Shown one piece after another: positions 23,291 to 44,501 of a DNA stretch of 64,000 nucleotides. Below the pieces are notes generated by a model. That model worked only from the letters and a program-made list of their open reading frames with translations. It was not told the origin of the DNA and ran no database searches. Position 1 is the stretch's first letter. Every line of letters starts with the position of its first letter. The DNA comes from Unio delphinus (Eukaryota; Mollusca; Bivalvia; Unionida; Unionidae), in NCBI GenBank assembly GCA_029339505.1, contig JAQISU010000070.1, positions 4,384,001 to 4,448,000 of the forward strand, read 5' to 3'. The translations under genes were made by a program, and so were the position numbers.

Positions 23291-23312
23291 CATCTGGGTC
23301 TTTAGTTACTAC

Positions 23313-24008: not shown

Positions 24009-24043
24009 ATATATATCTTAAGCACGGACGTGAAGGAAAACAT
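24009..24043 (-). promoter_or_regulatory. Shared promoter module, copy 1 (motif + TATA)
   Basis: On the minus strand ATGTTTTCCTTCACGTCCGT is followed within a few bases by GATATATAT, about 30 bp ahead of the ATG at 23981. The same module is at 24899-24936 and 25396-25432. Confidence 0.7.
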
Positions 24044-24240: not shown

Positions 24241-24319
24241 TAGTCAGTGTTTATAATCACGCTACTCCTCTCTCATACTAATTCACAAATTGAACAGTCT
24301 CTTTTCTAGACATTTGGTT

Positions 24320-24335
24320 AGCCCTAAGAAGGGCT
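24320..24335 (-). terminator. Histone-like 3' stem-loop (a)
   Basis: Minus strand AGCCCTTCTTAGGGCT: 6-bp stem, 4-nt loop, preceded by A-rich AACA and followed by AACCAAA and, after about 12 nt, the purine-rich GAAAAGAG. This is close to the histone mRNA stem-loop consensus (6-bp stem, UUUC-type loop, ACCCA after it, purine-rich downstream element). Loop differs here (TCTT). Confidence 0.55.
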
Positions 24336-24846
24336 GTTTTTTTTTAAAACTTCAAAATGCACCTGTCTAATGCTGATATCTTCCAGGTCTAGCCCCGCAC
24401 ACACATCTTCTACTCCAATCATTCTTCCAATTGACTCTTGTGATTGGGAGTGCAGAGGAAGCTTGAGTGGCTTCACTATCCCAATCTTACGTTTGAGGGA
24501 TAATGAAAGCCTGTTCACGTCTTCCTCTATACCGCAAGCGTGGATGAAGTTGTGGTTGTTGCGGTTGGGGTTGTGGTTGTTACGACCGGGGCTGTGACTG
24601 GTTGGCGAACTGATTCTGGTTGTGGAGGCGTCCTCACTTCAGGTTACACGTGACAGACTTCAACCATCATGAGGTGAGGCAAGATCGGTCTTCTCTTGTC
24701 CTCGTTTTTCTTATTTTTTTTCTCTCCTTCTGTTCTTCTTCAATTCTGGTCTGTTCTTCTAAGGCCTCCATAGCCAGCTCGTCCAGGAGACGTCTAGCAT
24801 GCTCCAGGTGCATCTGAAACTCCCTAAGCTTGTTGAGTCTACTCAT
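24324..24846 (-). pseudogene. Accessory gene with coiled coil, hairpin 3' end
   Basis: The ATG at 24846 opens a 59-aa frame (MSRLNKLREFQMHLEHARRL, then a Glu/Gln/Lys-rich coiled coil) ending at 24667; a different frame continues through an Asn/Pro/His-rich linker to SLSLKRKIGIVKPL and VCAGLDLEDISIRQV and stops at 24324. I infer one frameshifted gene. Its promoter is the module at 24899-24936. The end coincides with a histone-like stem-loop (24320-24335). The N-terminus MSRLNKL resembles MCSRLAKL of the next gene, so these two are probably paralogues. Function unknown. Confidence 0.45.
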
Positions 24847-24898
24847 CTTCTTTGAGTTGATGGGCCAACGATATATATCCAGACTGACGAGTGCTTCT

Positions 24899-24936
24899 CT
24901 ATATATGGGACAAGCGCGGACGTGAAGGAAAACACC
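24899..24936 (-). promoter_or_regulatory. Shared promoter module, copy 2 (motif + TATA)
   Basis: Minus strand GTGTTTTCCTTCACGTCCGC then, after CTTGTCCC, ATATATAG; about 50 bp ahead of the ATG at 24846. Nearly identical to copy 1 over 20 bases. Confidence 0.75.
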
Positions 24937-25180
24937 CCCTATGATAAAAAACTTACATTAGCAAAACACGCTGACCTGAAAGAAACACTCGCTCACGTTT
25001 TACTTTACTCGCATGAATTATAAATTTAATAAGTTACTGGAAAATATACGTTGTGATTTTAGACGCACTTCAAACAAAAGTAAAAGAGACTGTGATCATA
25101 GACTCACTTCTATTTTTTTTCTAACTTCCTCACATACCATTAGCATATTGAATTATTAATTATTTTCGAGAATATTGGGT

Positions 25181-25196
25181 AGCCCTGAAAAGGGCT
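25181..25196 (-). terminator. Histone-like 3' stem-loop (b)
   Basis: Minus strand AGCCCTTTTCAGGGCT: perfect 6-bp stem, loop TTTC, preceded by ATAAAAC and followed by ACCCA. It matches the core of the replication-dependent histone mRNA hairpin. It lies 83 bp after the stop of the short frame at 25279. Confidence 0.7.
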
Positions 25197-25278
25197 GTTT
25201 TATTTGTGTGTGCACGAGGAATGATGGCAATCTTGTATCATCTAAGATTGAGTCCTAGTCTGGAAACAGGCTTTGGCA

Positions 25279-25341
25279 TCAGACTTTGATACGATGAAGA
25301 TTGACATAAGCTTCGTTTAGCTTGGCTAGTCTTGAGCACAT
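25279..25341 (-). pseudogene. Truncated accessory gene (MCSRLAKL)
   Basis: Downstream of promoter module 3 the first ATG (25341) opens only 20 codons, MCSRLAKLNEAYVNLHRIKV, then stops; a second frame continues a little further. The N-terminus resembles the gene at 24846. With a promoter before it and a histone-like hairpin after it, this looks like a decayed paralogue. Confidence 0.4.
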
Positions 25342-25395
25342 CTTCGTAAGAGGATGAGTCAAACAATAGATAGTCAAACTGGAGACTACCCCTGT

Positions 25396-25432
25396 TTTAT
25401 ATGGTTCAAGCGCGGACGCGATAGAAAACACC
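25396..25432 (-). promoter_or_regulatory. Shared promoter module, copy 3 (motif + TATA)
   Basis: Minus strand GTGTTTTCTATCGCGTCCGC, then CTTGAACC and ATATAAAAC, about 55 bp ahead of the ATG at 25341. The stretch 25495-25690 beyond is low-complexity CAAATAACAAACAA sequence. Confidence 0.75.
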
Positions 25433-25690
25433 TCTCTACGTTTTAAGGTTGAAAACGTTAGGATAGTTTGATGTGAGGGAGAGAAAGAAGTCAAAGAGCA
25501 TCTATATTAATAAAAATGTAAAACAAACGACAGACGCATTGGTTTCAAAACACAACATTATTATTCAAATAACAAACAACTAACAAAACACAATTTTTTT
25601 CAAATAACAATCATTTCAGTATTTTCAACTAACAAACAATTTTTTCTTCAAATAACAAACATTGTTTTTCAATAACACCAATATATTATT

Positions 25691-26257
25691 TTATTTTTGA
25701 CATGGTTGACAGCGTTGACAATTAAATTGAGATTTCCACTGATGGAAGTCACTGGGCCATAGATGTAAACTATGTTTCCTACCTAAAGACAACAAAAAGC
25801 CATAATAGTCACAATGGTCACAAAACCATCGATCTACTTTGTCATCGTTTCGAGACGGATGACGATCAAAATAAGTCACTAAATGTTATAAAGAATATCC
25901 AAGACTGCGATGATGCAAAAAATAGACACAATATTGTCCACACATCAAAGAATCTGCGCCTTGCTATTTCACATTATTGAATCGTGTAATCTGGGCATTT
26001 CTTCTCATAAAGACAATGATATCGTCATCCAAAGGTGGTAATCCATACGAATCAAAATACTCCACACAACCCTGTTGATGAAAGTAGACAGCTACCCAGA
26101 GAGTTCCTAGAAGATGACTGTTATCTGTGTTGATGACATAAGCTTGATTCTCTTGAGGTTTGCGATGAGGTAGTTCATCTTTAGTACACACTAAAGGATT
26201 CCAAGAAGCAGTGTACGAACTACGGTTCAGAAGATAATAAAGTTCCCAGGTATCCAT
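25691..26257 (-). pseudogene. Adenain-like maturation protease of element 2 (inactive)
   Basis: 98-aa open frame from 26257 continuing through two in-frame stops (25964 and one ~65 bp further) to 25691. Landmarks: VCTKDELPHRKP; LGTLWVAVYF, where the catalytic His expected before Trp is Leu (codon 26099-26101 reads CTC); VEYFDSYGLPP; SLMCGQYCVYFL with the catalytic Cys; and YFDRHPSRNDDKV, the usual C-terminal helix. These proteases process capsid precursors at GG sites. Loss of the His and the stops show it is dead. It is the last gene of the capsid cluster. Confidence 0.85.
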
Positions 26258-26284
26258 TTTTTGTTGCCTTGTTTTCTTCTTTCT

Positions 26285-26539
26285 TCACAGGCGATGATAA
26301 GTCATCAATTCGATCCAGACTTTTTGCATGGAAAGGTCTGTCAAGTAACTGTTTGTTTGCTTCGTCTCCTTACTCTGTGCCAAGAGCGCTTCGATGTAAT
26401 CAATCTCTCGAGCAAACAATGGAGGAGAGGAATGATCACGCAAGTCTGTATACCACTGAAGTAACACGGCTTCTTCTGAGATGTGACTCCAAGCTTCGTT
26501 CAGATAATCGTCAAATGTTGCTTCTTGACTCATCATCAT
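26285..26539 (-). CDS. Unknown small protein between capsid and protease genes
   Basis: 84-aa frame starting MMMSQEATFDDYLNEAWSHI, acidic and helical, ending IELMTYHRL. It is 28 bp upstream of the protease and lies in the conserved capsid cluster, so I keep it as a likely gene or gene fragment. No family recognised. The 26540-26727 stretch before it shows no clear frame. Confidence 0.4.
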   Translation of the reverse strand: MMMSQEATFDDYLNEAWSHISEEAVLLQWYTDLRDHSSPPLFAREIDYIEALLAQSKETKQTNSYLTDLSMQKVWIELMTYHRL

Positions 26540-26727
26540 ACATTTATCGTGTTGAATTTGACTGGGAAGATTGATTTAACATCCATAACAATCTTTTTTG
26601 ATCATGTCCCTCATTGTATTCTCCAAGTGTTTGGCAAAACAGGTGACTAAATGTTGTTCCTGTTCTGGCCATCTGGACACTACTTCTTATTTTTGGTCTA
26701 GGGGTCTGCTTTCTCCGTAGCCTTCCA

Positions 26728-28082
26728 TTACATTTCCATTGATTCTCCACTGTTCAAAGAGGGACAAGAGTCTTCCATGGTTTCTAATAGTCTAGAATGA
26801 TGTCTCTCAAACTGTTGATTGCTATGGTATTTATCGAGAATGACATTCACCGTTTCGAGAAGAGCTGCAAACTGAAGTTCCACACGCAGTTGCCCAGATT
26901 TTATAAGGTGGAAATGTCCCTCGTCATTGACTTGGTCTGGAGTGAAATCAAAATCCCACAAAGTGTAACCTCCTGCATAATCGTCGTAGGAAATGCCGTG
27001 GCTGGTGTTGGTTCCTAACTGTCCTATGGCTTCGTACAGCGACAAGTACGACCTCAAGTTATTCTTCTGGTCAAAGTTGGGTTCAAAGGGTCGGGTGCAC
27101 AAAGTTTTGTCATCGCGACTGACTTCGATTTTGGATACTTTGTAGTGCTTAAACTGGAAAGGATTTTCATCCTGGGCACTGTTGAGGGCTGCATTGCTGA
27201 CAATACCAATGACTAAACGTTTGGGTAACTGTCCTTGGAACAGATGATCTTCGATCTTAGATCGGTGTCCAGCGGCAATGGTGAAAGTGTTTACTTCCAC
27301 GCGTCGTATCGGATACTTGGCTGTCGTTCTGCTCAAAGTGTGACTGATGTCATTTCCCACTTTAGGTAACACTTCCACACGACGCACGTATAACCTGGAT
27401 TATTGGATAATTGTTTTGTATTCGTAGGCATGAGCCATCAAATGAAAAGCAATACTGTTACGATTCAGTCTCAAGCTAATATCCACCCCGTTTAGCAAAT
27501 ACTTATCTTGAAACCACATGTCCAAATGCAAACGATCGAACAGTTCTAAACTACGTCCATGCAAAATTTTCTTTCGACGGTCGCTAAAACCCACCTTGTG
27601 AGAATCGTTATCTGCGGTCAAGACTGTGTCGTTAAACTTATCTGTTGTGTCAGGTTTCCATACCAAGCAAGCATCTAGATGTTCTTGGCTTCTTTTCCGT
27701 ACGTCAAGAGATTTTCGAGGTACGCTCGGTAAGGGTAAGTATCAATGCTACTGTTGACCACTTTGGTATTCATGTACAAATCCACATAGCTGAACAAGGA
27801 ATGCATGAAATTGTTGACGGGAGCTACTCGGGCATCGACTTCTGGGACGGAGTTGTCCGTTTTGATCACTTTCAATTTCAAATACAAGTAAGTAACTGCT
27901 GCTCAGATCGATGAAATCTTCGCGTTGCCCTTTGATTGCAAACTCGATGGGAGCTGAATCCGCCAAAGAGGAGACGGGTTGTAATTCGAGCTATTGGGCT
28001 TCTTGCATGGCCATCATCGTGGGGACATTGGAAAGAGATCCATTTCCGACTTGGAACGGGAACAAGATTCTTGGTGCATCAT
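26728..28082 (-). pseudogene. Major capsid protein of element 2 (F54H12.2-like, frameshifted)
   Basis: About 450 codons from ATG 28082. Pieces: DSAPIEFAIKG and DFIDLSSSYL (near 27950), VAPVNNFMHSLFSYVDLY and TYPYRAYLENLLTYG (27840-27690), LDMWFQDKYLLNGVDISL (near 27510), then an open 219-codon piece from 27387 with AKYPIRRVEVNTFTI, QGQLPKRLVIGIV, GYTLWDFDFTPD and LRVELQFA. These are the landmarks of the F54H12.2-like family, the hexon-like double jelly-roll capsid protein of Polintons/adintoviruses. Frame changes near 28010, 27890, 27670 and 27395 break it. It starts 6 bp after the preceding gene. Confidence 0.85.
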
Positions 28083-28088
28083 TTTTTC

Positions 28089-28550
28089 TCAGTCTCTATG
28101 TTTTGCTTTTAATAATAAAAAATGTCTAAATCTCGAACGGTTCTCTTTTCTTCGTCTTTCTAACTTTAGAGGTATGGAGACTTTTGGAAGTGTGACTTCG
28201 TCGTCGCTCTCTGCCTTGTCCTTGCTGTGCCCTTTATAAGCAGGAATGCCAGACGTGGTACCGTTCAGGGCATCTATAGGACTTTCTCGTTGGCCCAAAA
28301 TCTCTTCACCCGTTTGAAGCAAGACATTTTAGCCTGCTCTCAAGAAAGCTCCATTGGGGTTTTGTTTGTCAATGAGGACATTTTGAATAAAATCTTTGCC
28401 GTGAGTCAATGCGGCATCTTTTAAGGCGTGCAATCCTCGTGTCACAATCGGTTTGAAAATAAGGACCACATAACGAATGGCCGATTTAAACATCTCTCTT
28501 AAACCATATCCTCGTTGTCGAGCAACTCCTTGGTATACATGATACATCAC
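28089..28550 (-). pseudogene. pVI/PX-like capsid protein of element 2
   Basis: ATG at 28550, four bases from the end of the minor capsid gene. YQGVARQRGYGLREMFKS and FKPIVTRGLHALKDAALTHG form the amphipathic/hydrophobic N-terminal half typical of this family; an in-frame stop at 28329 separates a polar half ending in basic residues (LKLERRRKENRSRF) at 28089. Family members are thought to act like adenovirus pVI (capsid interior, membrane-active). Confidence 0.65.
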
Positions 28551-28553
28551 TTT

Positions 28554-29331
28554 TCAGTTGTTCGAGAATCGTTTTTGAAAATGGAGTTTCATTGTCACTT
28601 TCCTTTTGGTAAATGGAATATTTTGTCCCAGATCTCCTTTTATAGTAATGTTGACACTGTCAAAATACGCCTCACTGACAGGCAAATAATGAGGATGTAC
28701 AAATTCGCGGTGAACGTGATAAGTATTTCCACCTTCCTCGTCAGCGGTTGCAGCAGAAAGGAATGACAGCAGTAACGGCAAAGATGTGTGTCCGACGACG
28801 TTGTACTCCACCACATTGGAGTACACAAACATGAAGTTGAGTCCTTGGTTCATTTCTACAGGGAATCGAAAATATTTTGCAAGATCCAAGTTACTGGTTA
28901 TGGCTGGTATTTCTTTTTTCTTGACCAACCTGAGCTCCACCTAAAATATCATAGAATTCATAACAAAAGGTGATAGCCATCATTTTATCCTCTGAAAATT
29001 TGATCATTAGTCGATGAGTCACTTTATGGTATTCAAAGATAACACATTTTCTGGCTTTGTCCATGGCTTTACCAAACAAAGTATTGAACCGGGTTGCAAG
29101 TGTAGCCATTAAATGTTGACCACTAAAATAGTAGCGTGTCGGAATGGTTAATAGATAGGTGGACCGATTAGTTTTGGCGTCCTGTGTTGTCATTGTGTCA
29201 CTACCAGTGTTGCGTTTTTCGTTTAAGTGTTGTTGCAATTGCTCGTCATACACTTCTACTGAAAAACTGTTTTGATTTTCGACGATGTTTTTGATTTGTG
29301 TCTGGTGTATCATTTCCACTAAAGCCATTTC
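28554..29331 (-). pseudogene. Minor (penton-type) capsid protein of element 2
   Basis: Reading begins in the middle of the usual N-terminal region (EMALVEMIHQTQIKNI, near 29331), fused in frame to the integrase chromodomain. It continues with IPTRYYFSGQHLMATLATRF and ITFCYEFYDILGG, shifts frame near 28925, then NFMFVYSNVVEYNVVGHTSL, HYLPVSEAYFDSVNI and KVTMKLHFQKRF to the stop at 28554. The second half fits the conserved minor capsid/penton-like protein of Polintons. The first 30-50 residues appear deleted together with the intergenic region. Confidence 0.7.
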
Positions 29332-30173
29332 AATCCAAGAATAAAAAATGGGAGGATATCCTTTCCAACGTACTTTGACTTCTTTGACACGACGTTTTCC
29401 TACTTTACGGATTCTTCGTTCGAGAATGCTTTCAATGTCGTACACGTCGTCTTCTTTTTTAGTGACACGTTGTAACTCAGGCAAATAAAACGTTTCTTTT
29501 AATAATTCTACGTTCATGTCTTCCAATTTATAGACGGTAGGATGACGATCACGCACTCGTTCTTTAACACGAAAGAATTCGGTGGTCCAGTTGGGTAAGT
29601 AACCTTTGTCGAAAGTGCGTTTGGTTTTGCCAATGCGAACCCAATCTCCAGGGGTTAACACTCCACCTTTCTTGGTGACAGCCATTCTCCAATGTTTCTA
29701 TGGTAAGATTGGTTGTAGGCTTGGACTAAGTGCGGTCAAATGTCGATGTACTTGAAAGTCTGTTGATGCATACAATATTTCCACATGCGTTCTTTCATGG
29801 TACGTTGAAAACGTTCCACGATGCTGACTTTGGTTTCAGGATTTTCGGTGGTGAAAAAATGAATGTCACGTTTCTTTAATTCTCGTTGGAAAGCTTGGTT
29901 CAAAAATTCGGTATCTTTGTTGGTTTGCCATCGAAGAGGGCGACGATCACTTTGTTTCGACACCAGTTGCAGGACTCGTACTAACTCTCCGCTTGATTTG
30001 GAAGTCAATGGTACAACCCAGGCAAATTTAGAAAAAACGTCGATGGCAGAAAACAAATATTTGTAGCCACGATTGTAGGTGGTTAATTGAGAGACATCGG
30101 CTAAATCGGCTTGTCATTGATGATCGATATCTTCCACTTTAGTGCGACTTCTGTGAAATTTTCGTCGAGACAT
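29332..30173 (-). pseudogene. Chromodomain integrase of element 2 (inactive)
   Basis: Retroviral-type integrase that would insert the element. From ATG 30173 the frame reads KFHRSRTKVEDIDHQ, stop (TGA in place of Trp), ADLADVSQL (first catalytic Asp), NRGYKYLFSAIDVFSKFAWV, QTNKDTEFLN (the second Asp is Asn), SIVERFQRTMKERMW (catalytic Glu). A TGA at 29736 and a shift near 29690 follow; then GDWVRIGKTKRTFDKGYLPN, and a chromodomain DDVYDIESILERR...VRWKGYPPIFYSWI (29435-29332). The chromodomain then runs without a stop into the minor capsid protein. The N-terminal zinc region is absent. Confidence 0.88.
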
Positions 30174-30360
30174 TCAAACAACATTCACACACAGTATCGA
30201 TGACATCTTTGGAGGCCGTTTTAATGATTTGTTCTTGCATGGTCGGAGAGGCTTTGTACGGGACAGACAACATGTCCCCATGTTTGACTAAACGAGAAGG
30301 TAGTCCTTTCCTTTTCTTTCCTTTGTGGGGTGAATAAGAATGTTTTCTGCGAGGAGACAT
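30139..30360 (-). CDS. Basic core-like protein 2 of element 2
   Basis: 73 aa from MSPRRKHSYSPHKGKKRKGL, strongly basic in the first third, then PSPTMQ-type middle and a helical C-terminus (IIKTASKDVIDTVCECC). It overlaps the integrase start by 35 nt. The N-terminus resembles that of the upstream basic protein (MSPKKRAHH). Small basic proteins of such viruses condense DNA (adenovirus VII/X-like); the assignment is by composition and place only. Confidence 0.5.
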   Translation of the reverse strand: MSPRRKHSYSPHKGKKRKGLPSRLVKHGDMLSVPYKASPTMQEQIIKTASKDVIDTVCECCLNVSTKISQKSH

Positions 30361-30430
30361 CGTTGCTTGTTTGTTCCAAAAATCCATTGACGTCAAAGAC
30401 TTGGTACCCTCTTTTATCTACTTTTTGGAA

Positions 30431-30649
30431 CTAGCAATTCGTCAAAAATGTTACAATGTTTTTCCCAAAATCGCCAAAGTAACCTCCGTTTTGATGACTC
30501 TTCTTTCTCTTTAAACAACTGCGTCTTTTTAAGGGATGACGTCGATGTTTGGCTAAGCGTTTTGTAGGATGACGAGATCGTCTTTTTCTTTTTCCTTTTT
30601 GGACAGCAGAACGGCAATGGTTGTGGTGTGCACGTTTTTTCGGAGACAT
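30431..30649 (-). CDS. Basic core-like protein 1 of element 2
   Basis: 72 aa from MSPKKRAHHNHCRSAVQKGK with about 35% Lys/Arg/His, ending GGYFGDFGKNIVTFLTNC. The GG-Y context is of the kind cut by adenain-like proteases. It is a likely virion DNA-condensing protein. An upstream in-frame extension to 30784 exists, with a different composition; I prefer the internal ATG because the paralogue starts the same way. Confidence 0.5.
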   Translation of the reverse strand: MSPKKRAHHNHCRSAVQKGKRKRRSRHPTKRLAKHRRHPLKRRSCLKRKKSHQNGGYFGDFGKNIVTFLTNC

Positions 30650-30838
30650 AATTAGATGTTTGTCCTGGGTGACAGATTCTTCATCTGGCACTGTCACTAA
30701 CACAGGTTTAAAAGTGACTTTTTTCTCTCGAAGTTGAATTTTACGATCACAATGCATGAGCATAATGGGATGCTTTTTGTACAAGCCTCAAAATCCCAAT
30801 ATGTTTAGTCACGTACATCTGTCCAATGATGGTGTAAA

Positions 30839-31639
30839 TCACAAACTACACACACGTCGTCGTACACCGCTTTCGTACGTAAAAGTTGATAAATCTTTTA
30901 TTCCTGTAGAGGTCGATACGTATCCAGATGAAAGCGTTAGGCTTTTAACTGAATGAGTCTCTCGTGGACATTTAAAGGTGTCACCATACTGTCTTTGTAG
31001 GTATTTTTCGTAAAGTGTCCACAAGGAATCGACAGGTAAACGAAATCCCAGAAAGCAAGTCACTAAAACACACCTTACACGTCGACCCCAATGGATGGGA
31101 CACAGTTCTCGTAATAAGTGTTCGTAATCGTCCACCGTGTGAATGTTTTCATTGATATCCTTCCACGGAATCTGTTTTATCACAAGTGATAAAGGTTGTG
31201 GCACGGTAGTTCTATTTTATACTTTTGTTTGTCGAAGACCATAAGTGTACATTCTGCACAGAATTATTTAAAATCTAAAATAGCGAAAGTGATTAACATA
31301 ACGTGCAATTTCAGACCACTGCCATTCAGGGTAACGGTTGAGAATGATCAAAAAATTTTCAGATGTAAACGAACTAAATTGGAAACAAAGGAAAAAGACA
31401 CCCTTGATCCAGAGAAATCTGACACGTTGGTTGCTTTTTGTCACTTTCCTCTTGTGAATTTCACGACACAAAAGTTCTACAGTCACTAATTGAGATTTTT
31501 CTTCAGCAAGTCCCTGTCAAACTTCCTTGTAGATCTTCTCTTGCAATTCGTTTGGTAATCCTTGAATATTATGTTTTAGAGAGGGTTTATATACTGGACT
31601 AGGTTTGTCTCCAAGCCAAACTGGATTGTTAAACGACAT
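30839..31639 (-). pseudogene. Unknown protein of element 2
   Basis: ATG at 31639 (MSFNNPVWLGDKPSPVYKPS) leads to GLPNELQEKIYKEV, an in-frame TGA, then LVTVELLCREIHKRKV to 31268, a shift, and a second piece 31204-30839 with IPWKDINENIHTVDDYEHLL and RVRCVLVTCFLGFRLPVDSL. LPNEL..KI is reminiscent of an F-box start but too short to claim. It lies 28 bp after the BIR gene. Function unknown. Confidence 0.45.
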
Positions 31640-31666
31640 GGTACAGTATTGTCACTTTCAATCACT

Positions 31667-32156
31667 AAGGTCCCACGAAAGGTAGGTATTGTCAATTAGC
31701 AGACCATCGAGCATGTTCCAGGTAAGCGGAATCCTGTTCCCACTCGTAAATTGACACACCACAACTGAAACACTTGACTTTATCCACCTCGCCGTAAAAG
31801 AAAAATCCGGCACTAGCTAAATCTTCAGGAGTTGGTCCAGGCATATATTTTGGCCATTTATCTTTGAAGGTTTGGAATCGAATTTTAAAGTAACAGTATT
31901 CAGTTCGATGCAGGTACGTTGAAATTTCTAGGTGTCCACGATAACGTGTGGTATCGCTTTCGCATCCCATAGGTTTGACACGTACCGCATCACTTTCCAT
32001 GGTAGAAATAGGGGTGGTAGTCATAGCAAAGTTCCCACGATGTCCTGCTGAATCGCTGAGGTCACAGCATTTGACATCACTGCAATCGCAAGGTATAACA
32101 TTAAACTCCACTTGAGAATCCCCAAATTTGAATGATGTATGTTTAAACCTATTCAT
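31667..32156 (-). pseudogene. BIR-domain (IAP-like) protein of element 2
   Basis: BIR domains bind caspases or related peptides and block cell death. From ATG 32156 the first ~95 residues are Cys/Thr-rich without a known fold; the C-terminal BIR reads RFQTFKDKWPKY, LASAGFFFYGEVDKVKCFSC, GVSIYEWE and LEHARWSAN. Zinc ligands CxxC and His are present, but the codon for the fourth ligand (Cys, seven after His) is TGA (31692-31694); the frame then stays open to 31667. The ATG overlaps the polymerase stop by 8 nt, so it belongs to element 2, not to a host gene. No RING domain. Confidence 0.8.
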
Positions 32157-35012
32157 CTTGTGTCGCTTGCTCGTTGTAGTTATAAATGAACCATTGGTCT
32201 TGGGCGATGTCCCTTTTTATATGCTGTCCAATCTCGACGTGACCGTACGGTAAAGTGAAGTGATTTTGAAGTCGTACTCTCTTTTGGTACACGATTTGAT
32301 AGACTTTTTCCAAAGGTCGACTGACGATTTGGTATGTGGGTAAACGGACAATATTTTGCGGTTCGTGGGTGGTCACTTTAAAAGTTATATCTGGTCCCGA
32401 CTGTAAGACTTCTTGTAGCACGTTAAAGTTCACCACTCGACTGGTGCGATAATTGAGAGTCCATCCTTTCATTTTACATTTGGTGTGCATTTCACCTTGT
32501 CTCAGTATTCGTTGCCGTAATTATTAGGACCGCCACTTGCAAAACATAGAATGTTGTCGTCGGGATATTCATCGGGTGAGGCTCTTAAACGGTCTTTTTC
32601 AATGACAGGGTTAAACTGATTCGGCCGGTGAATGTAGATGCAACTGTCTGTGTCAAAATACAACACACGATCTCCTAACAGTTCTAACACTTCGTACAAT
32701 TTTAAGCGAGCGTGGGCTGTCACGAAAGCCGCAATGATGACTTCGAAATTGTCAGCTTCTACAAAGTCTAGTTCTTCTTCGTAATTGACTAAGATCAAGT
32801 CGTCACGAATGACGTCCACGTGTTTCATGTATTTGGTTTTGTCGTGAATCATCTGGAATTAGCGGGAAGGTTCGGACAAATACTCCTTCTTGGGTAAAGA
32901 CGGGCGTTGTGCCATTTTACCCAACAAGCAATTTAACATCACGTTGTCAAACGATCGCCTTCCTTTGTATTTCACCACGTGGTCTAAAGTGATGCCTTCC
33001 TGCTCCCGATATTTGTCTTTGAATATATTTTTGTCTTCGGGATTGTGACACCAGGACCGATAGCCGCTAGCTTCTTGTTTTAGTTTTAAAAAGGCATCCA
33101 CGTAGTCTGGAAAAATACCTTTCTGTGTCTCGTCGCCCTTGTGATATTGTTGTCTTGGTAAATTTCGTACACTTCTAACAGTTGGTATCCCAGGTCCAGA
33201 GCTTTAAACAATTCCACGCTAACCCACGTTACTGTCAAGGCGCGTTCTTCCTGGGTGTGCTGATAAGGTTGATCTTGGTTGCAAGTTTTGGCACAAAGGA
33301 ACAATCAGTTTCCCTTGGCAATGGTGAGGTAAAACGGGATGGTACAAGTCCGTGGGTGGCAAGACTTTGCACTTGATCAATCCTTTGTACTGGCGTATGT
33401 GGTCCGAGTCAATGTGTTCTGTCATCAATTCCGGGTGCCCATCGGGAATGTGACGATATTTGCCCACGTAAGGATACAGCGAACACACGTTCAAGTATTT
33501 GATTTCTTCTCCCTACTCTTCCTCCGCCTTTTACAGCAAACAGGTGGCATTCGTCAGTCCTCCGTACAAACTATCCCGAAGGTTCTGGGGGTCAACTAAC
33601 TTGTAACTTTCTACGATGCTTTTAAACTCGGGATCGGTTTTGAAACGCTGATCTTACTCGTGTTCCCATATTTCCAGCACTTGGTATCCTTGCTGTTCTA
33701 ACTTCAAACGTCGCTGACATGTTGTCTGGTACAAGACTTACATTGCCCGTTGTAAAACAGATTTTTGATGTCACGTTGAGGGTAACACATGGGACATCCG
33801 TGAAATAAGCATCCTTTAAACTCGTACACAATTTGAGTGTTTTATAAGTCCCAACCATCTACCGAATACGTTTCGATGGTCTTTTCGCCTCCACCGTTGC
33901 GAGCGTGTTGGATCCATTTGTCTTCTTTGTCGCACAAGTAATGCAGCTAACGTAGGTCTTTGACCGAATTTTGACTTGACAAAGTTCGTCGTTTGAGGGC
34001 TGATGACAGCGAGGGTATTTTCAGGCACGAATCGTTTTCTGTATACGAAGGAACATGCTTTGGCGTTGGTACAAGCTTCTTTCAAAGGATCAATCCCTCC
34101 GTGCTCCATGAACAATTCTCAAAAATTTTCCATAGCAACGTCGTAAAATGTCCACGTCGGATCTACAGTACGTTAACATTTATTCTTGAAAGTCAAAGGT
34201 GTCCGAGGCGTGAGTCTGGTACCAAGCGTGGAAAGCTGATCGTTGTTCGGTACGCATATTGTCGGGGTCGTAGTAGTGATCCTCAGGCAAATGGGGTGGA
34301 ACGGCATATTGATTGGCTTCGGTATTGAAAAAGTGTGGAAAATAACCTTTGGCCATTTTTGTCATTCCAAACGTTTTAGGCTTGCGACTCAAAGGCATGG
34401 CCAAGTAACTCAATGAATCTGTAAACTGTACTTGTCCTACTTTTGCATAGAAATGATTTTGGTTCCGTTCAAAGTCACTTTAGGACGTTCAGTACTTTAT
34501 TCCGTATAGTATCTGAGCAGAAATTGCCCATCGTATCCCGAGAAATTGTGAACCATTACTGTGGCATGGCGATGACATTCTCCGTAAAGCTCGACGTCCT
34601 CTTGACTAAATGTCTCGTCGATGGGGTTTAAGATCCATTTGGGAAAATTGGCTAGCGTGTTGGAACCTCGAAAGATTTTTTCACGTCCTCCAGGAATCTT
34701 GCTGCAGTGAGGGAAATGACTAAAGATGGGTTCTTGGATTCACTGCTTGCATGCTCGATGAGTCACGAAATTGGGAATGTGAATACCGGTCTCTTGCATG
34801 CATTCGAAATCAAAAAGATAAAATTGCCTTTCTTCTGATCATCTTCTTGTTGGGTCTTGGTATTTTTGAATGTAACATTCGTGCTCGAAGTCAACGATTT
34901 GGTGACAAATGTGACATCGTTTCCTTCCTCGACAAACGTGTAACCTGGCACTATTGGTACGTATGCCTTGTCCACAAGTAGGGCACAATCTCAGAAGCTG
35001 ACAAGCACTTTT
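32149..35012 (-). pseudogene. PolB of element 2, 3' part (palm and thumb), broken
   Basis: Continuation of the gene at 41683-42880 past the LTR insertion. In order: a Cys-rich zinc region (CHICHQIVDFEHECY), KPKTFGMTKMAKGYFPHFFN and HYYDPDNM (exonuclease-linked region, near 34400-34240), IVYEFKGCLFHGCPMCYPQR (near 33800), motif A YLNVCSLYPYV (33500-33465; the catalytic Asp is Asn), CSLYP then GLIKCKVLPPTDLYHPVLP, motif B NVMLNCLLGKMAQR (near 32930), motif C YFDTDSCIYI intact (near 32645), and a C-terminal piece to 32149. Several shifts and stops separate these. This is the protein-primed-type polymerase of Polintons; it is inactive. Confidence 0.88.
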
Positions 35013-36694: not shown

Positions 36695-36695
36695 A

Positions 36696-36713
36696 TGGTG
36701 TCAGAAGTGGGAT
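36696..36713 (+). other. Primer binding site (tRNA-Leu)
   Basis: TGGTGTCAGAAGTGGGAT, one base after the 5' LTR. Its reverse complement equals the 3' end of animal tRNA-Leu (CAA), CCA included, as I remember that tRNA. Confidence 0.85.
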
Positions 36714-36907
36714 CGTTGGATTAAGTGAACTGTCAATCATTTTTGTGAAGGTATACATTTAATGTTTATATTTGAGCGTGACCTTCTGTTAAGATAATAC
36801 TCTAGTTGGAGTTTATTTTTGTTTAGTTTACCTAGGTCCGTGTGTCCAGTATAAACGTGTTTAAAGTATTGGTTTGGTTATATATCTATATTCATATTAC
36901 AATTGTC

Positions 36908-39817
36908 ATGTCATCCCTTAAGGACTTGGTTGCCTTAGGCAAAGAATTCGGTTATGAAGGCGAAAGTCTAAGGAAATTTATTCAGGAAGAACAAGCCCGG
37001 GAAAGGGAAGAAAGGGTAAGGGCAAGGGAATTAGAAAGGGAATTAGAAAGGGAAAAAGGGGAAGCCGAAGAAAGGAAACGGGAATTAGAAAGGGAATCCG
37101 AAGATAGGAAATGGGCCTTTGAGAGGGAAAAGATAGGATTAGAGAAGGAAAAGATAGAATTAGAGAAGCAGGCCGAAAAAGACAGGATAGAATGGGAAAT
37201 GGAAGCGGAGCAAAAGCGAATCGAGTTAGATAAACTAGCTAAAGTAGAAATGTTAGAGTTAGAAGAAAGAGCAAAACAACGGGATCATGAGCGTAAGGTA
37301 GAATTAGCGACATCTGGAAGAGAACACGATTCTGCCACTAACAAATTAAGGGGCCCCAAATTACCTCCCTTTGACGATGAAAAAGATAACATAGATAGTT
37401 ATCTTCATCGGTTTGAGCGGTATGCCGAAAACCAGAAGTGGAGTCAAAATGACTGGGCGCTGCATCTGAGTGCTTTATTAAAAGGTAAAGCACTGGATGA
37501 ATACTCGCGACTTCCTAGGGACGATGTGTTTAAGTACGACGTCCTAAAGGAAGCACTTCTCAAAAGGTACGAGCTCACTGAACAAGGTTTTCGAAAAAAG
37601 TTCAGGTATAGCAAGCCCGATAAGGGAGAAACCTTTGGTCAGTTCACCGTCAGAATTGCGAACTATTTTGAGCGGTGGATTGAATGCGGCAAAGCGGTGA
37701 AAACGTTTGAAGGGTTGACTGATTTCTTGCTCAGAGATCAATTATTTAATACAGTTGGGCGAGAATTAGATCAATTTCTGAAGGAGAAAGTCTTCACAAA
37801 CGTAAAAGATATGGCTAAGCAAGCCGATTTATTTGCCGAAGCTCATGGGGGAACCCAGAACGTGGTTTTAAAAGATTTTAAGTCTGGAAACCAGTCTGTA
37901 AGACCTATGCCTAGGGAGCCTGTAAAATCAGCTGAGGTAAAAAGGTCAGTTGGGAATCCAGTTTTTCAGCGTGTGCGGTGTTTCTTGTGTAATGCATTGG
38001 GTCATGTTCAAAAAGACTGTCCTAAAAGAATGGCACTTATACATAAGGTAGCAGTGGCTATACAAAGTAAAGGTATATCCGATAACAACGTACATGTAGA
38101 ACCTTGTATTCATTCACTTGGCACGTGTTTATTTCCTGAAGCGCGTGTACCAACCGCGAGAGGGTTTGTCAACGGTCGAGAAGTCGTGGTATTGCGTGAT
38201 ACTGGTTGTACGAGCGTAGTGATCAAACGTAGTCTCGTGCAGGATAACCAAATGCTCGGGTGGGAATCCCCATGTATGTTACTTGATCAGACGATGGGTC
38301 GCATTCCCGTAGCAAGGATCACAGTAAAAACACCTTTCTTAACGGGAACTGTTGATGCCCTTTGTATGGACAATCCTATATACGATCTGACGATCGGTAA
38401 TGTTGAAGGTTCCCGTATTCCAACCATGGCCGATTTTAAAATACCTTTGGCCCAGGCAGTGGAAACGCGAGCGCAAACACTGCGAGAGAAAACCGCGTTT
38501 CATAAATTAATAGTCCCTGAATCGATCTCAGGAATTTCCCGTGATGATTTCAAACAAGAGCAAGAACGTGATGAATCCATCAGAACAATTGTTGAGAAAA
38601 TCACGTCCGGCGCGATTAAACATTGCAAGCGTGGGGGTAGCTCTAGATTCGTACGCAAGAACGGATTAATTCATAGGGAGTTTAGCGCTCGGGAGGGTAA
38701 GAAGTATTGGCAAGTGGTCGTACCCCAGAGATACAGATCTCAAGTACTTAGGGTGGCACATGAGTCAAGCATGGCAGGACACCTAGGTAAGGCTAAGACC
38801 ACTAGCAGGGTAGTCGCTGAATTCTACTGGCCTGGTGTTAATGGCGATGTCACACGGTTCTGTAGGTCGTGCGACGTATGTCAGAAAACCGTTTGTAAGG
38901 GAAGGGTCACAAGGGTGCCCTTAGGACAAATGCCATTAATAGATACACCGTTTAAAAGAGTGGCAGTAGATATTGTAGGACCAATACACCCGGTTACCGA
39001 AAGAAAGAATCGGTACATACTTACTCTGGTTGATTACGCAACCAGATACCCCGAAGCCGTAGCGTTACCAACTATTGAAACGGAAAGGGTAGCTGAAGCA
39101 TTAGTTGATATCTTCAGTAGGGTAGGGGTGCCAGAGGAAATCCTCACTGATTGTGGTGCCCAATTCACCTCTGACCTCATGGGTGAAATAAGTAGGCTGT
39201 TATCCATCAAACAGCTAAACACTACCCCATACCATCCGATGTGCAATGGACTGGTAGAGAAGTTTAATGGTACCCTGAAAAGCATGCTACGGAAGATGTG
39301 CGCGGAACGTCCGCAAGACTGGGACCGTTATTTAAACGCTGTTCTGTTCGCGTACCGTGAAGTACCGCAGGAAAGTTTAGGGTTCTCGCCCTTTGAACTG
39401 TTGTATGGTAGAACAGTTCGAGGCCCGATGCGGATACTACGCGAACTATGGACTGGTGATGTCGCGAACGAGGAAATAAAAACAACTTACCAGTACGTTT
39501 TAGATTTAAGAAACAAACTTGAGAGTACATGCCAGATGGCACGTGACGAATTGATTAAATCGGGGCGCAGATATGCCAAGTATTACAACCGCAGAGCGCG
39601 TAATAGGAAATTTCTTGTGGGAGATCAGGTGCTATTGCTTCTTCCAACGAGTTCGAATAAGTTATTAGTCCAGTGGAAAGGTCCATACGAAGTTAAAGAA
39701 GTAAAAGGTGACATGGACTATAAAATTGACATGGACGGTAATGTAAAGACATTCCATGCAAACATGCTCAAGTTATACATCAAGAGACAGAGCGACAATG
39801 TCAATAAGGGGAGTTGA
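36908..39817 (+). CDS. Gag-protease-integrase polyprotein, intact (969 aa)
   Basis: Start at the first ATG (36908, MSSLKDLVALGKEFG); the frame is open further upstream without ATG. Residues ~25-140 are a Glu/Arg/Lys coiled coil; ~150-310 a retrotransposon Gag domain (LPPFDDEKDNIDSYLHRFER); 358-371 a CCHC knuckle (CFLCNALGHVQKDC); protease active site LRDTGC with Asp ~431; integrase zinc finger His618, His625, Cys655, Cys658; catalytic core Asp688, Asp748, Glu784 with 35 residues between the last two; a GPY/F module (LVQWKGPYEV) near 920. No YxDD or RNase H motif exists between protease and integrase or after integrase. No stop or shift anywhere, in contrast to the host element around it. Such a product could act with RT supplied by a relative. 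Confidence 0.95.
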   Translation: MSSLKDLVALGKEFGYEGESLRKFIQEEQAREREERVRARELERELEREKGEAEERKRELERESEDRKWAFEREKIGLEKEKIELEKQAEKDRIEWEMEAEQKRIELDKLAKVEMLELEERAKQRDHERKVELATSGREHDSATNKLRGPKLPPFDDEKDNIDSYLHRFERYAENQKWSQNDWALHLSALLKGKALDEYSRLPRDDVFKYDVLKEALLKRYELTEQGFRKKFRYSKPDKGETFGQFTVRIANYFERWIECGKAVKTFEGLTDFLLRDQLFNTVGRELDQFLKEKVFTNVKDMAKQADLFAEAHGGTQNVVLKDFKSGNQSVRPMPREPVKSAEVKRSVGNPVFQRVRCFLCNALGHVQKDCPKRMALIHKVAVAIQSKGISDNNVHVEPCIHSLGTCLFPEARVPTARGFVNGREVVVLRDTGCTSVVIKRSLVQDNQMLGWESPCMLLDQTMGRIPVARITVKTPFLTGTVDALCMDNPIYDLTIGNVEGSRIPTMADFKIPLAQAVETRAQTLREKTAFHKLIVPESISGISRDDFKQEQERDESIRTIVEKITSGAIKHCKRGGSSRFVRKNGLIHREFSAREGKKYWQVVVPQRYRSQVLRVAHESSMAGHLGKAKTTSRVVAEFYWPGVNGDVTRFCRSCDVCQKTVCKGRVTRVPLGQMPLIDTPFKRVAVDIVGPIHPVTERKNRYILTLVDYATRYPEAVALPTIETERVAEALVDIFSRVGVPEEILTDCGAQFTSDLMGEISRLLSIKQLNTTPYHPMCNGLVEKFNGTLKSMLRKMCAERPQDWDRYLNAVLFAYREVPQESLGFSPFELLYGRTVRGPMRILRELWTGDVANEEIKTTYQYVLDLRNKLESTCQMARDELIKSGRRYAKYYNRRARNRKFLVGDQVLLLLPTSSNKLLVQWKGPYEVKEVKGDMDYKIDMDGNVKTFHANMLKLYIKRQSDNVNKGS

Positions 39818-39987
39818 AAATATAGGCGCAGACTACTTGAGTAGGGCGTGATGGGAAATTTGTATGAATTTGCCCAGTAATAAAATCCAGTTTGTAGTAT
39901 AACCAGTGTAAATGTTGTAAGATATCATCAGTAGTTATTTTTCTTCTATTCTGTGTTAGTTTTAAAAATGTGTACATTTTTATTCTT

Positions 39988-39998
39988 AGGGGGGAGGT
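39988..39998 (+). other. Polypurine tract
   Basis: AGGGGGGAGG just before the 3' LTR, the expected plus-strand primer. Confidence 0.85.
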
Positions 39999-40000
39999 AT

Positions 40001-41682
40001 TGTCACAGAATTAGGCGAAAATTTTAACTGATTTTTGTTGTACTTGAATTGCAAACGAAACTCACCATTTTCTTGATTACGTCGTACACGCATTACCTGG
40101 GGTGATTAAGTGGCGTGTAACGATTTGCATGTGCCAATTTGTAATTTACATGAAATCCGAAATACTCGTTTTACGTGGTGCACTGCAAGCTCGATGTGAT
40201 TTATGTTCACCTATTGAGAGTATATAAGGCGAACTATTTATCATAATTTTTTACGGGAACTAAAATATCTAATCGAAGGATAGATAACCTCGTCTTGCAA
40301 ATCTCCAGCCAAAGGGGTGAGTGTTAAATTTACATTTCGTTTTATTGTGAATTTTATTCAGATTATCATTTCGTATAATGATGCTTTTATTGCAATTAAA
40401 CGTGGAATATTTGGAATTACTAGTCACTTTTAGACTTTAAATACAATATCGTAATCTACGGCTTAGATTATTTTTGAGACAACTATTATTAGTCTGGTTT
40501 TGTTTATTATAGCTGATTCAGTCTGATTCCAGCTGATTCCGTCGTTGATACCGTAGAAGTTCATCACTGATAGCGCATCTAATAACATCGTTGATACCGT
40601 CTCTGATACCGTAGCTGCTAACATAGTTGTTACATTGTTTCTGGTACCGTAGCTGCTAATAACATCGTTGATACCGTAGCTGCTAATAACATCGTTGATA
40701 CCGTAGCTGCTAATTACATCGTTGATACCGTAGCTGCTAATAACATCGTTGATACCGTAGCTGTTAACACATCTGATACCATCTTTTGATAAACGTCTTT
40801 GAAATCGTTTGATTTGTTGTGGGACATCTATTGTTTGTTCTGGAACATCTCTGTATAAATATCTGAATGTGCTTGTGCCGTTAATTTGTGCAAACGGAAT
40901 TGAAGTATCTGTCTGTGTATCGAACTGTCTGTTCGTCAACATCTGTGTAACATGTAAATATCCGGAAAGCTAGAAGTCCGAGTGTCGGAGCTGTCTTAGA
41001 GTTGTAAAACGTCCGGGTCGACATCTAGGGTAGTGAGGAACCGTTGGTTCTGGTAGATGTTGTATGCTGTCTGAACGTATAACTGTGGTGGATCCGTGTA
41101 GGGAAACGTCCGATAATAGTATTGGTCAACCCTCGGTTCTCGGGGAAACTGGGAGACGATTCAACTGTTGCTGAATCGTGCGGTTATACAGGGGAGACAC
41201 ATAGGTGTATTGAAATTGTGATATAATTTAATACATTGTTGTATTTGCATGCTTATGTCAGATCGCAATAATATTTCAAGTGATCACATAGATATCAATA
41301 AAAGCTAGCAACTTGATTCAATACAAGTATATGATCGTGCTAGTTATCGCAATCCATCGTGCGATAGATAGTTTGTCGTTTGTGTTTATTTTTTTTCGTA
41401 AATCATTCTTGCATTTATTTAACTTTCGTAAAGGATTCTTGGATCTGTGTATAATCCAAGAGATTCCTTTACATTTGTGATTCCTTTTGTATTGTTATTT
41501 AATTTATTCATGTATTGTGAATGGTTGTGAGTGTAATTGTGGGTTGAGCGCGTGAGTTATTGTGTTAATACATCTGTATTTTTTTCATTTATAATTTATT
41601 ACATAAATTTATATTTTCTTTCACAAATTGTGTTTGTATTGTTCATTTAGTCCACCCTCCTCTCGGTAACAATTCTGTTACA
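40001..41682 (+). repeat. 3' LTR
   Basis: Same length and, wherever I compared, same sequence as the 5' LTR, including the 27-bp tandem repeat (about 40610-40780). Confidence 0.97.
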
Positions 41683-42880
41683 CTTTTCTGCTGTGAACCT
41701 TGGATCTTCAAATGTTGTTGGTAACAGGTATGACTGAAACGGTGCGCTGACAAACAGGGCGATGCACTCGTTCTTTTCCTTTGTCCAGACAGGGTTTAGA
41801 GGCCAAACATCCCTCACAGTTTGATCCACAATGCTTGTATTGTTCTCGATTGTTATAACCATAGTCACATTTTTCAAAGTAGTAACTCTATCCTAGAAAT
41901 GCAGTGATACTGGTAATGGTATCAAAATGCCCATCGTGATGATATATGTGAATGTATTTTCCGTCTTTGAAATCGTGGCCTCAAAACAAAAGAGGACCAC
42001 GCACTTCTTGAGGGTGTACTTTCAAGGTGTAATGTGGCGCTAAGACGTCTTGCAATTGTTGCATTTCTGGAATGCCGCAAGGGGTGTTTTTGGATATCGC
42101 CGTTTGCTGTAACAGTAGTTCTGCTTCACATCGTTGTTTGGCTCGGTCCGATCGTTGAATAGTTTTCAAGGCTTTTTTTCATTCTGCCGTCTCATTCTTG
42201 TCGGAATAAGTTTGTCCCACGACGATGGCACGAGCTAAACAGATCTGGTCTTCAGAATTGTTAATTTGGACGAGGCTTCGCTTAATGTTGCGAAGGATGT
42301 CGACCAATAACACTTTTTTTGCGTTGTCCGGTCCCTTGGGGAAGAGACACGTGGGTCATAAACAATGTGGCCTTTCAATCGGTGATGTGAAACTTGTTGT
42401 TGGATTGTTACAGATGCTCAATTTTGTCGATGACTTTAGAAGGTGTTATTTGTGATGGACGGCTAAGCTCGATCCAAACGGAAGACTTCAAATTATTGTG
42501 ATGAATAGAAAGTCTAAAGCGATCGTCTTCTTTGGCTTGACATTGCTTTTTCAGTGTAGTTTTAACACAGAATCCCACAACTCGGTAATGATCCCTTCTG
42601 TATTCACCAAAGGTACATTGGACTTGAAATCTTTAAACTTTACGGCATACGTGTAAGCCGTAGTTCTAAATTTTCGAGAGGAACGCTTTTCCGTCTCTCG
42701 AATCTGATAGTACTTCTCAGGGTTTACTAAGGGTGGTGAACTTTGCTTGGACTTCGATTGTCTGAGTGTGGATTCTGGCTCACTCATGTCATCTTCAAAA
42801 TCACTGGCATGAATTTCAGCCAAGACTTCAGCTACTGTGCGAGGCGATACATCACGTTTCTGTCTCTACTGTCTTCTCCT
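41683..42880 (-). pseudogene. PolB of element 2, 5' part (exonuclease and Cys-rich region)
   Basis: Minus-strand reading starts near 42880 (RDVSPRTVAEVLAEIHASDF) and includes PEKYYQIRETEKRSSRKF, YAVKFKDFKSN, then pieces in other frames with PEMQQLQDVLAPHYTLKVH, YIHIYHHDGHFDTITSITAF and CDYGYNNREQYKHCGSNC near 41830. These match the N-terminal domain of Polinton PolB. The gene is cut at 41683 by the retrotransposon and resumes at 35012. A divergent TATA-bearing promoter region lies at 42881-43043. A second copy of this segment is at 44868-45960. Confidence 0.8.
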
Positions 42881-43043
42881 TTCTAGACAAACATGATGCG
42901 GTATTTTCATCTTGTTTACAAAATGTCAAATGACTACAACTTAACGACAATGACTCCTATATATTCACGTTCGATCCGTGTATATATAAAGGGTCAGTGT
43001 CTAACCTTTCAGTATTTATTTCACTCTCACATTGAACAGAACG
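42881..43043. promoter_or_regulatory. Divergent promoter between PolB and the CCHC gene
   Basis: TATATATAAA at 42981-42990 faces the plus-strand gene (ATG 43044); GAATATATAGG (about 42953-42963 on the minus strand) faces PolB. Confidence 0.55.
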
Positions 43044-43493
43044 ATGGAAGAGCCTACACAAGTTGAACTTCTCATCAGAGCTTTGCGTGCTGTCATACGA
43101 AAGTTTTCTTCAGACAAGCCGACGGACTACTCTTCCTAATTTCGAGATAAAAGTCAAGATACTTGCTATATCAGTAAGAAGAAAGGACATTGGGCTACAG
43201 AATGTCCAGATCGTGACAAAAACAAAACAGGTGTTAGAAGAAACAAAAGTCAAGATACCTGTTATCATTGTAAAGAGAAAGGACATTGGTCTCTAAACTG
43301 TCCTTAGAAACAACAGGAGCAGGAGGAGGAGGGGGAGATGAATTCTAAACAGGTGGAGGAAGAGGTACCCTCCACCAAAGAAGAAGCTCGACACGTTCAC
43401 AAAGACAAGAAAAGAAGACGAAATGAAAGCGATGAGGAAAAAGAAATAGAGAAACCTGTGACAATAAAGAAATTGAAAAAACAGAAAGTGTGA
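43044..43493 (+). pseudogene. CCHC zinc-knuckle protein of element 2
   Basis: ATG 43044 (MEEPTQVELLIRALRAVIRK) is open for 31 codons, then a shift leads to two zinc knuckles: CYISKKKGHWATECP, in which the second Cys is Ser, and CYHCKEKGHWSLNCP with all four ligands. An in-frame TAG follows, then a Glu-rich and Lys-rich tail to the TGA at 43491. Its place beside PolB and its opposite strand suggest an early nucleic-acid-binding protein; not recognised as a known Polinton family. CCHC knuckles also occur in Gag, but nothing else here is Gag-like. Confidence 0.55.
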
Positions 43494-43746
43494 ACAGAAG
43501 AAGCCTATGAATTGTATAAAGTGGTATTGTGTTATGTTATGTTGTGATTTTGGATTGTAACATTTGTACCAGAATACACCAGACGGAAAAAATGTAAGTG
43601 TCTCTTGGTTTTGACATAGAATAAGAACCTACACTCACACACTCATTCACGCACACGTACATCATGTTTTTTTTTTTAAAAAAGGACTTTTGAGATTTCA
43701 TTTAATTAGGCAATTGAAATAGTATTTCTTTTCGAAAGATTTGAGT

Positions 43747-43762
43747 GGCCCTGAAAAGGACC
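43747..43762 (-). terminator. Histone-like 3' stem-loop (c)
   Basis: Minus strand GGTCCTTTTCAGGGCC: 6-bp stem with one G-U pair, loop TTTC, preceded by CCCAAC and followed by ACTCAAA, then CGAAAAGAAATAC about 12 nt later. This fits the replication-dependent histone mRNA hairpin and its purine-rich downstream element very well. It lies 37 nt after the stop at 43799. Confidence 0.75.
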
Positions 43763-43798: not shown

Positions 43799-44430
43799 TC
43801 AGAAACGGGACGAAATCATCTTTAACTGTCTTAAGCATTCGCCATAGCCAAAGCTTACTTCTGGACTGGTGGTTCCTGTCAATGATTTGGTAGAAATCAC
43901 TAAAGGCGGTACGGCAGACGTAGTCACAGTTAAATTGGGTTGTTTAGCTCGAGAAGATTTTTTTCTCTTCGGTCGTGATAAAGAAGTCTGATACATTTGT
44001 TTCAGACACCTTAACTCTGCTAAAATATCTAAAAGTACCGTGACCGTTTGATTTTCACTATTCTCTTTCTGTCCTTGGTCTTCTTTATTCTCTGCTGATG
44101 CTACTGTTTATTCCTAGTGTTTCCTTCTTGCTTCTTCTGCTTTCCGCTGTTGAAGGAGAAAGCTTGTTTTGCTTCTATTTGTTGTTGTAAAAGTCGCTCC
44201 AATTCTTGTTCTTGTCTTTGCTTAAAATCATCGCCGTGTAAAACAGAAGCAGAAGGTAACGAAGGTTCCGGAACAAATTTTTGTAAAGTTAGTAAATCCA
44301 CAATATCCCTGTTAAAATCAACTTCTTCTGGGTGTAGATTTGTATTGAATTTGGTAGTCACTGCTGTACCATTACTTGCTGTCTACACTACTGGCTCAAA
44401 CCAAATCATCGGCTTCCTAGTTTCCGACAT
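43799..44430 (-). pseudogene. Accessory nuclear-type protein with hairpin 3' end
   Basis: ATG 44430 (MSETRKPMIWFEPVV) is followed by an in-frame TAG, then an open stretch with NRDIVDLLTLQKFVPEPSLP and a Gln/Glu-rich helix (RQEQELERLLQQQIEAKQAF), a shift near 44100, then VTVLLDILAELRCLKQMY and a basic cluster SRPKRKKSSRAKQ like a nuclear localisation signal, ending at 43799. About 205 aa. Not recognised. It has a CRE-TATA promoter upstream and the histone-like hairpin (c) 37 nt after the stop. Confidence 0.5.
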
Positions 44431-44479
44431 TATTGACAACTCTGTCGCATCGATTGACTGCGCACAGACGCTAGTACCT

Positions 44480-44501
44480 TTATATAGGGAAGGTGACGTC
44501 A
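44480..44501 (-). promoter_or_regulatory. CRE + TATA promoter
   Basis: Palindromic TGACGTCA (44494-44501), the full CREB/ATF site, stands directly next to TATATAAA (44480-44487, minus strand), about 50 bp ahead of the ATG at 44430. Confidence 0.65.

Follow-up and report, generated by a model that had tools for sequence, protein, structure and literature searches.

Why should the hairpin that ends metazoan replication-dependent histone mRNAs be found behind the genes of a transposon? The question is raised by a stretch of the genome of the mussel Unio delphinus (assembly GCA_029339505.1, contig JAQISU010000070.1, positions 4,384,001 to 4,448,000 of the forward strand), the whole 64,000 nucleotides (nt) of which are called the window here and supply the positions used below. 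Within it lies an element of the Maverick/Polinton kind with three minus-strand stem-loops. Histone-type 3' ends are generally taken as a mark of metazoan replication-dependent histone genes, whose mRNA 3' ends are processed by the U7/SLBP pathway. From the comparisons of sequence set out below, we consider it very probable that the stem-loops are genuine histone-type 3' signals, and that a Maverick/Polinton family has adopted the control of its host's histone genes for its own accessory genes. Each hairpin is followed by a purine-rich downstream element at histone spacing, and the sites are listed here with their scores for the Rfam family Histone3 and for a covariance model trained on the host (host CM):

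24320..24335, minus strand: histone-type stem-loop a; Rfam 24.0 bits, E 0.026; host CM E 7.6e-8
24298..24310, minus strand: histone downstream element a, TCTAGAAAAGAGA, by sequence; compare host TCTAGAAAAGA
25181..25196, minus strand: histone-type stem-loop b; Rfam 33.9 bits, E 5.1e-6; host CM E 7.1e-9
25160..25171, minus strand: histone downstream element b, TCTCGAAAATAA, by sequence
43747..43762, minus strand: histone-type stem-loop c; Rfam 30.2 bits, E 1.2e-4; host CM E 2.6e-11
43727..43737, minus strand: histone downstream element c, TTTCGAAAAGA, by sequence

An Rfam scan of both strands of the window (4,227 families, matches up to E 10) returned 22 matches, of which Histone3 (RF00032) contributed exactly three, at 25201-25155(-), 43767-43721(-) and 24340-24294(-). 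A preliminary description of this DNA had given the coordinates, strand, stems, loops and flanks of the three hairpins, all of which are as it described them, and the purine block that it noted is the host's histone downstream element. Its distance of 37 nt from the stop codon to hairpin c is corrected to 36 nt by a count by hand; the same kind of count gives 31 nt for a, and the host's own histone genes have 29-38 nt. The placement of the hairpins at gene ends, also proposed there, is clean in the window for c alone. Gene b has lost an internal part and gene a is interrupted by stops, and for these two the gene-end position is visible in other copies of the element.

The host's tandem histone cluster (locus L038, on contig C15) contains H1, H2A, H2B, H3 and H4 with one hairpin each, followed by blocks such as CTCTAGAAAAGAAATAA. 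A weight matrix of two blocks and the host CM were both built solely from these five histone 3' ends. With the matrix, sites c, b and a score 49.9, 42.6 and 39.0, and the next non-overlapping site in the window scores 12.7; the maxima of 100 Markov-1 sequences of 64 kb have a mean of 11.4, the highest being 21.3. The preliminary description would have been refuted by scores no better than those of shuffled sequence; by Rfam, weight matrix and host CM alike, the hairpins score far above it.

In the family as a whole the hairpin occupies five positions, namely after the terminal genes L and R, where it stands at the inner edge of the terminal inverted repeat (TIR), and after the internal genes a, b and c. 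Order, spacing and letters at the five positions are as in the genome's own histone genes. The corresponding parts of the window are these:

22994..23300, minus strand: left TIR; the similarity between copies ends there, with the terminus ...TATAACTACT at 22994
23313..23893, minus strand: left-end gene L, with a broken frame in the window; ends counted by hand
24367..24846, minus strand: gene a, starting MSRLNKLREFQMHLEHARRLL, with a Cys/Arg-rich tail; interrupted by internal stops in the window, open in a copy elsewhere
25279..25341, minus strand: remnant of gene b, starting MCSRLAKLNEAYV, internally deleted and resembling the start of gene a
43799..44430, minus strand: gene c, starting MSETRKPMIWFEP, with a broken frame; its stop lies 36 nt before stem-loop c
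44477..44630: region shared by the divergent genes c and R, with two TATA-like boxes, two ATTGG, TGACGTCA and GCATTCGC
44649..44870, plus strand: gene R, with a basic tail, cut at the rearranged right junction

The hairpin at the TIR edge, called type 1 here, is found behind both L and R, which are different genes, and what L-type and R-type loci have in common starts at the hairpin and runs to the terminus. It follows that the 3' signal is the inner edge of the TIR. This evidence comes from left-end and right-end loci compared across different copies. In the window the type-1 hairpin has been deleted from the inner edge of the left TIR, after AACTAAAGACCC, and it is present in relatives; in four of these the stop of gene R lies about 26-33 nt before it (counted by hand, with the frame inferred). 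Sub-terminal repeats resembling GCGACAAGGGAAATTTAACATG occupy 23092-23247 of the window's TIR and differ in number between copies. Genes a and b have similar starts and encode many charged residues, and the ATTGG of the region between c and R is presumably an inverted CCAAT box. As far as can be inferred, the accessory products are most likely small nucleic-acid-binding or assembly proteins needed during replication of the element.

The 2.5-Gb assembly containing the window was searched for relatives. For Histone3 there are 74 matches listed (75 of 434,796 candidates were scored), with type-1 copies reaching 43.8 bits; six of the 74 lie on C15. Among the 68 others, 39 were examined, and 38 of them show GGCCCTTTTCAGGGCC or a small variant of it, L048 being the one that did not match the pattern. 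No histone motifs were seen around 27 of the 39 (L001-L008 and 19 non-C15 pieces of L029-L048), and no histone family was found in 30 scanned open reading frames (ORFs) of the window of at least 109 amino acids. An embedded piece of a histone gene, considered as a candidate, was rejected on these two results. When 20 loci were fetched with 10 kb of sequence, 19 aligned with the element genes or ends of the window. The remaining locus, L017, is without the element genes seen elsewhere and has two histone-type hairpins face to face within about 130 bp (L017:4981-5111; host CM E 1.6e-11 and 4.9e-5), possibly belonging to two convergent genes.

Loci L009-L028 were picked by the type-1 hairpin, and hairpins a, b and c in them are thus unselected. 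At the orthologous sites in alignable copies (seven of a, five of b and five of c), 16 of 17 have a host CM E<0.05, and a of L016 has E 0.42. The expectation that related elements would have the same hairpin is therefore confirmed for orthologous sites in related copies of this genome. A second sample was chosen by similarity to gene L alone, with 40 copies scored of 2,513 candidates and 30 ends fetched; it left out the window, one copy already examined and eight of the nine copies on C413. The exact hairpin is present in 15 of these 30 ends, and a hairpin with its downstream element can be recognised by eye in 28, some with point changes. In 19 of the 25 evaluable copies the stop lies 14-23 nt before the hairpin. 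The 30 ends are not fully independent, as L096, L109 and L110 are near-identical to one another, and likewise L091 and L094.

Histone-type signals are also found in front of accessory genes. The preliminary description, sound on the hairpins, had overlooked this promoter motif as well as the hairpin at the TIR edge. In the host cluster, GTTTTCAATCACGTCCGC occurs three times in exact form, ahead of H1 and H2B and, on the opposite strand, ahead of H2A. Four minus-strand sites in the window match GTTTTCNNTCACGTCCGC with no more than one mismatch each; the expectation at up to three mismatches is 0.31, and none of 100 shuffles reaches four. The motifs that belong to accessory genes are:

24024..24041, minus strand: promoter motif of gene L, one mismatch, TATA-like box at +8
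24916..24933, minus strand: proximal promoter motif of gene a, no mismatches, TATA at +10
24963..24986, minus strand: distal promoter motif of gene a, one mismatch to a piece of the host H4 promoter; 0/100 shuffles
25412..25429, minus strand: promoter motif of gene b, one mismatch, TATA at +10

The TATA-like box thus lies 8-10 nt behind the motifs of L, a and b, and 7 nt behind that of host H1. Over the window and 20 loci, the element has 15 motif matches with at most two mismatches; a TATA-like box lies within 52 nt of 11 of these, and a same-strand hairpin, not always that of the nearest gene, within 2.5 kb downstream of 13. Genome-wide, the pattern with a final C or T has 4,426 exact occurrences and its reversed control none; the first 100 of these places were listed and 11 were examined. 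L120, which was chosen by its motifs, has two of them and a TATA box. Its gene a is open, with the hairpin 27 nt after the stop (counted by hand) and a downstream element behind it. In a forward test, ten short pieces were taken behind ten further motif pairs among the first 100 places, at the motif-to-hairpin distance of L120, and the predicted hairpin was present in six of the ten at E<=3e-11.

The body of the element, in the window and in its relatives, supports its membership in the Maverick/Polinton family. Between hairpins b and c lie the following features:

28891..30113, minus strand: rve integrase and chromodomain pieces, from domain matches
31692..32156, minus strand: ORF with a BIR (inhibitor-of-apoptosis) domain, E 4.9e-17
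32193..34620, minus strand: approximate region of alignment with ORFs for DNA polymerase B in the relatives L013 and L021
35013..41681, plus strand: Gypsy-type long terminal repeat (LTR) retrotransposon that has inserted into the element; the alignment of L021 spans this site and lacks the insert

The rve and chromodomain matches (E 1.4e-7 and 1.9e-5) are slightly under the Pfam cut-offs (32.1 vs 32.6 and 24.9 vs 25.1). A family B DNA polymerase is matched in L021 (PF03175, E 5.4e-12) and in L013 (phrog_1907, E 2.2e-14), and the polymerase aligned to 32.2-34.6 kb of the window is putatively of the protein-primed type. An A32-type packaging ATPase and a piece of a double-jelly-roll capsid protein are on a separate fragment of the window, at 11.8-19.9 kb; in L028 the ATPase is next to gene a and the left end, and in L018 the capsid region borders the right end, which places both in the same family. 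The pPolB, rve plus chromodomain, ATPase, double-jelly-roll and TIR evidence supports the original assignment. The family has many copies in the genome. In the window copy, the right end is rearranged at 44870, and a diverged direct duplicate (78-88%) of part of the element, 41794-42729 and 44869-45795, is joined at this broken end.

Outside the genome, the virus database IMG/VR was consulted, where ATPase and pPolB queries matched nothing, and an alignment of the ATPase gave two weak loci among the 600 stretches listed. Hairpin patterns had zero and three matches there, the three being by eye without a downstream element at host spacing, and the promoter motif had 20 matches, which is about chance by a rough hand estimate.

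What these signals would do can be stated as a sequence of steps. L, a, b, c and R would be transcribed by RNA polymerase II, with L, a and b under promoters of the histone type. Their transcripts would bind SLBP and be cut after the hairpin by the U7 small nuclear ribonucleoprotein, and so have no poly(A) tail; the pairing of U7 small nuclear RNA (snRNA) would fall on the CTAGAAAAGA block. In the TIR the outward-facing signal would serve both terminal genes, which would end at the element's edges. Such mRNAs would be made and used mainly during host DNA replication, when a self-replicating element needs them, and any activity would be that of relatives, not of the window copy. The arrangement suggests that the element times its gene expression to DNA replication. 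We incline, with distinctly less assurance, to a wider proposal in which the whole transposon family mimics histone genes, with promoter motif and TATA in front, stem-loop and U7 element behind, the latter within the TIRs, and in which the accessory proteins would come from non-polyadenylated mRNAs solely in S phase.

Several observations weigh against an adoption of histone-gene control. The curated Rfam gathering cut-off for Histone3 is 34 bits, which none of the window sites a, b and c attains, and the Histone3 search gave a match in one of 14 control genomes, a bacterium, under the cut-off. No match to the GTTTTC motif was found for genes c and R, and the fourth motif of the window (46782-46799, one mismatch) has neither a hairpin nor a TATA-like box behind it. 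Four of the ten motif-chosen pieces in the forward test had no hairpin, and six of the 25 evaluable copies of gene L had no in-frame stop before it. The best match to a U7 snRNA gene (RF00066) in the genome has E 0.7, under the cut-off, and a U7-like pattern occurs 164 times there, as compared with 235 for its reversed control, with no convincing gene. The string used in this search recurs many times, in nearly the same letters, on contigs C65, C98, C103, C112 and C142, where it is probably an unrelated repeat. Finally, genes a, b, c, L and R are all broken or cut in the window and one hairpin is deleted, and for this reason the window copy is probably inert, an old, broken and decayed insertion.

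The alternative that survives best, although we judge it unlikely, is that pieces of host histone genes were captured and have been copied along unused. The type-1 hairpin region is indeed closest to host H1 (score 34.0, with 23.5-29.5 for the other four histones), the motif-to-TATA distance of H1 is similar, and most element copies looked at are decayed. However, the best-matching host gene is H3 for a and c, and H2B for b. As the hairpin types match different host histones best, the data do not point to a single capture of one histone gene, nor would one explain them all. Divergent versions of the signal are placed after stop codons, moreover, with compensatory changes in their stems. In 12 sequences chosen by hand (seven from the element and five from the host, with L041 taken for its differing stem), all 72 stem cells pair and three of the six pairs are changed on both sides, for example from G-C to A-U in types a and b. 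Three two-sided pairs were reached in 11 of 500 column shuffles and the covariation score in none of the 500; this hand-chosen alignment illustrates that compensatory changes exist, not their rate. Unused passengers are also hard to reconcile with the existence of an open gene a with both signals, and with the relatives of protein L in environmental sequence, which are full proteins of 184-195 amino acids, 41-80% identical to the query. Fragments of protein L are known from Sinanodonta woodiana as well, a freshwater mussel that provides the sole organism-named protein matches, which makes a molluscan host plausible, and the predicted structure of protein L is all-helical with a predicted local distance difference test (pLDDT) value of 78.

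Much less probable still is a reading of the hairpins as terminators of the viral type, or as hairpins of poly(A) sites, and not as histone signals. Some large DNA viruses do have hairpins where their genes end, and giant viruses have them at their poly(A) sites, which speaks for such an origin, yet the loops, flanks and downstream blocks of the element agree with those of the host histones, as do the promoters of L, a and b with the histone promoters of the host. We give just as little credence to palindromes that act as DNA in the terminal repeats, in replication, packaging or integration; the type-1 copy does lie at the inner edge of the TIR, whereas a, b and c are internal, the orientation follows the genes and the downstream element, which is strand-specific, has been retained. 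That the hairpins arose by chance in an AT-rich window, with which the modest Rfam score of site a would agree, is extremely improbable given the shuffles, the Rfam and host CM E-values and the recurrence in relatives.

If the element family has indeed taken over histone-gene control, a DNA element would have a new route to couple its expression to host replication, by way of both promoter and 3'-end codes. Its accessory genes would be natural non-histone reporters for SLBP/U7 biology, and RNA data selected for poly(A) would miss part of Maverick expression. Such an element would in addition point to a promoter motif of mussel histone genes. Should most of the 4,426 motif places (11 of which were examined) belong to the family, there would be more histone-type signals in it than in the host's listed cluster, and these signals could tap the processing factors that element and host share.

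Among the papers listed for adintoviruses, Mavericks, Polintons, histone stem-loops and SLBP, none was seen to describe histone-type 3' ends in elements of this kind, most subscription papers lying outside the scope of the survey. The signals resemble the 3' ends of metazoan replication-dependent histone mRNAs in their 6-bp stem, UUUC-type loop and ACCCA-like flank, in a GAAAAGA block at the host's distance, in letters like those of the host histone genes, and in a hairpin 14-36 nt after the stop where this was measured, in the element genes L, a and c. They differ in that the genes they follow have no histone match and lie within a Maverick-like element, and in that the first base pair of stems a and b is A-U, not G-C. 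The element itself is like Mavericks or Polintons of the adintovirus-like kind in its pPolB, rve with chromodomain, A32-type ATPase, double-jelly-roll piece and TIRs with a 5'-AG terminus, which is the rule for the TIRs of these elements. Unlike known Mavericks, it has accessory genes with a histone-type promoter motif and histone-type 3' ends, and a 3' signal within the TIR. A parallel is offered by the adomaviruses and tailtomaviruses, animal viruses reported to have 'histoid' genes for proteins that resemble histones (PMC11071296); both they and the element described here would borrow from histone biology, the viruses its proteins and the element its control signals.

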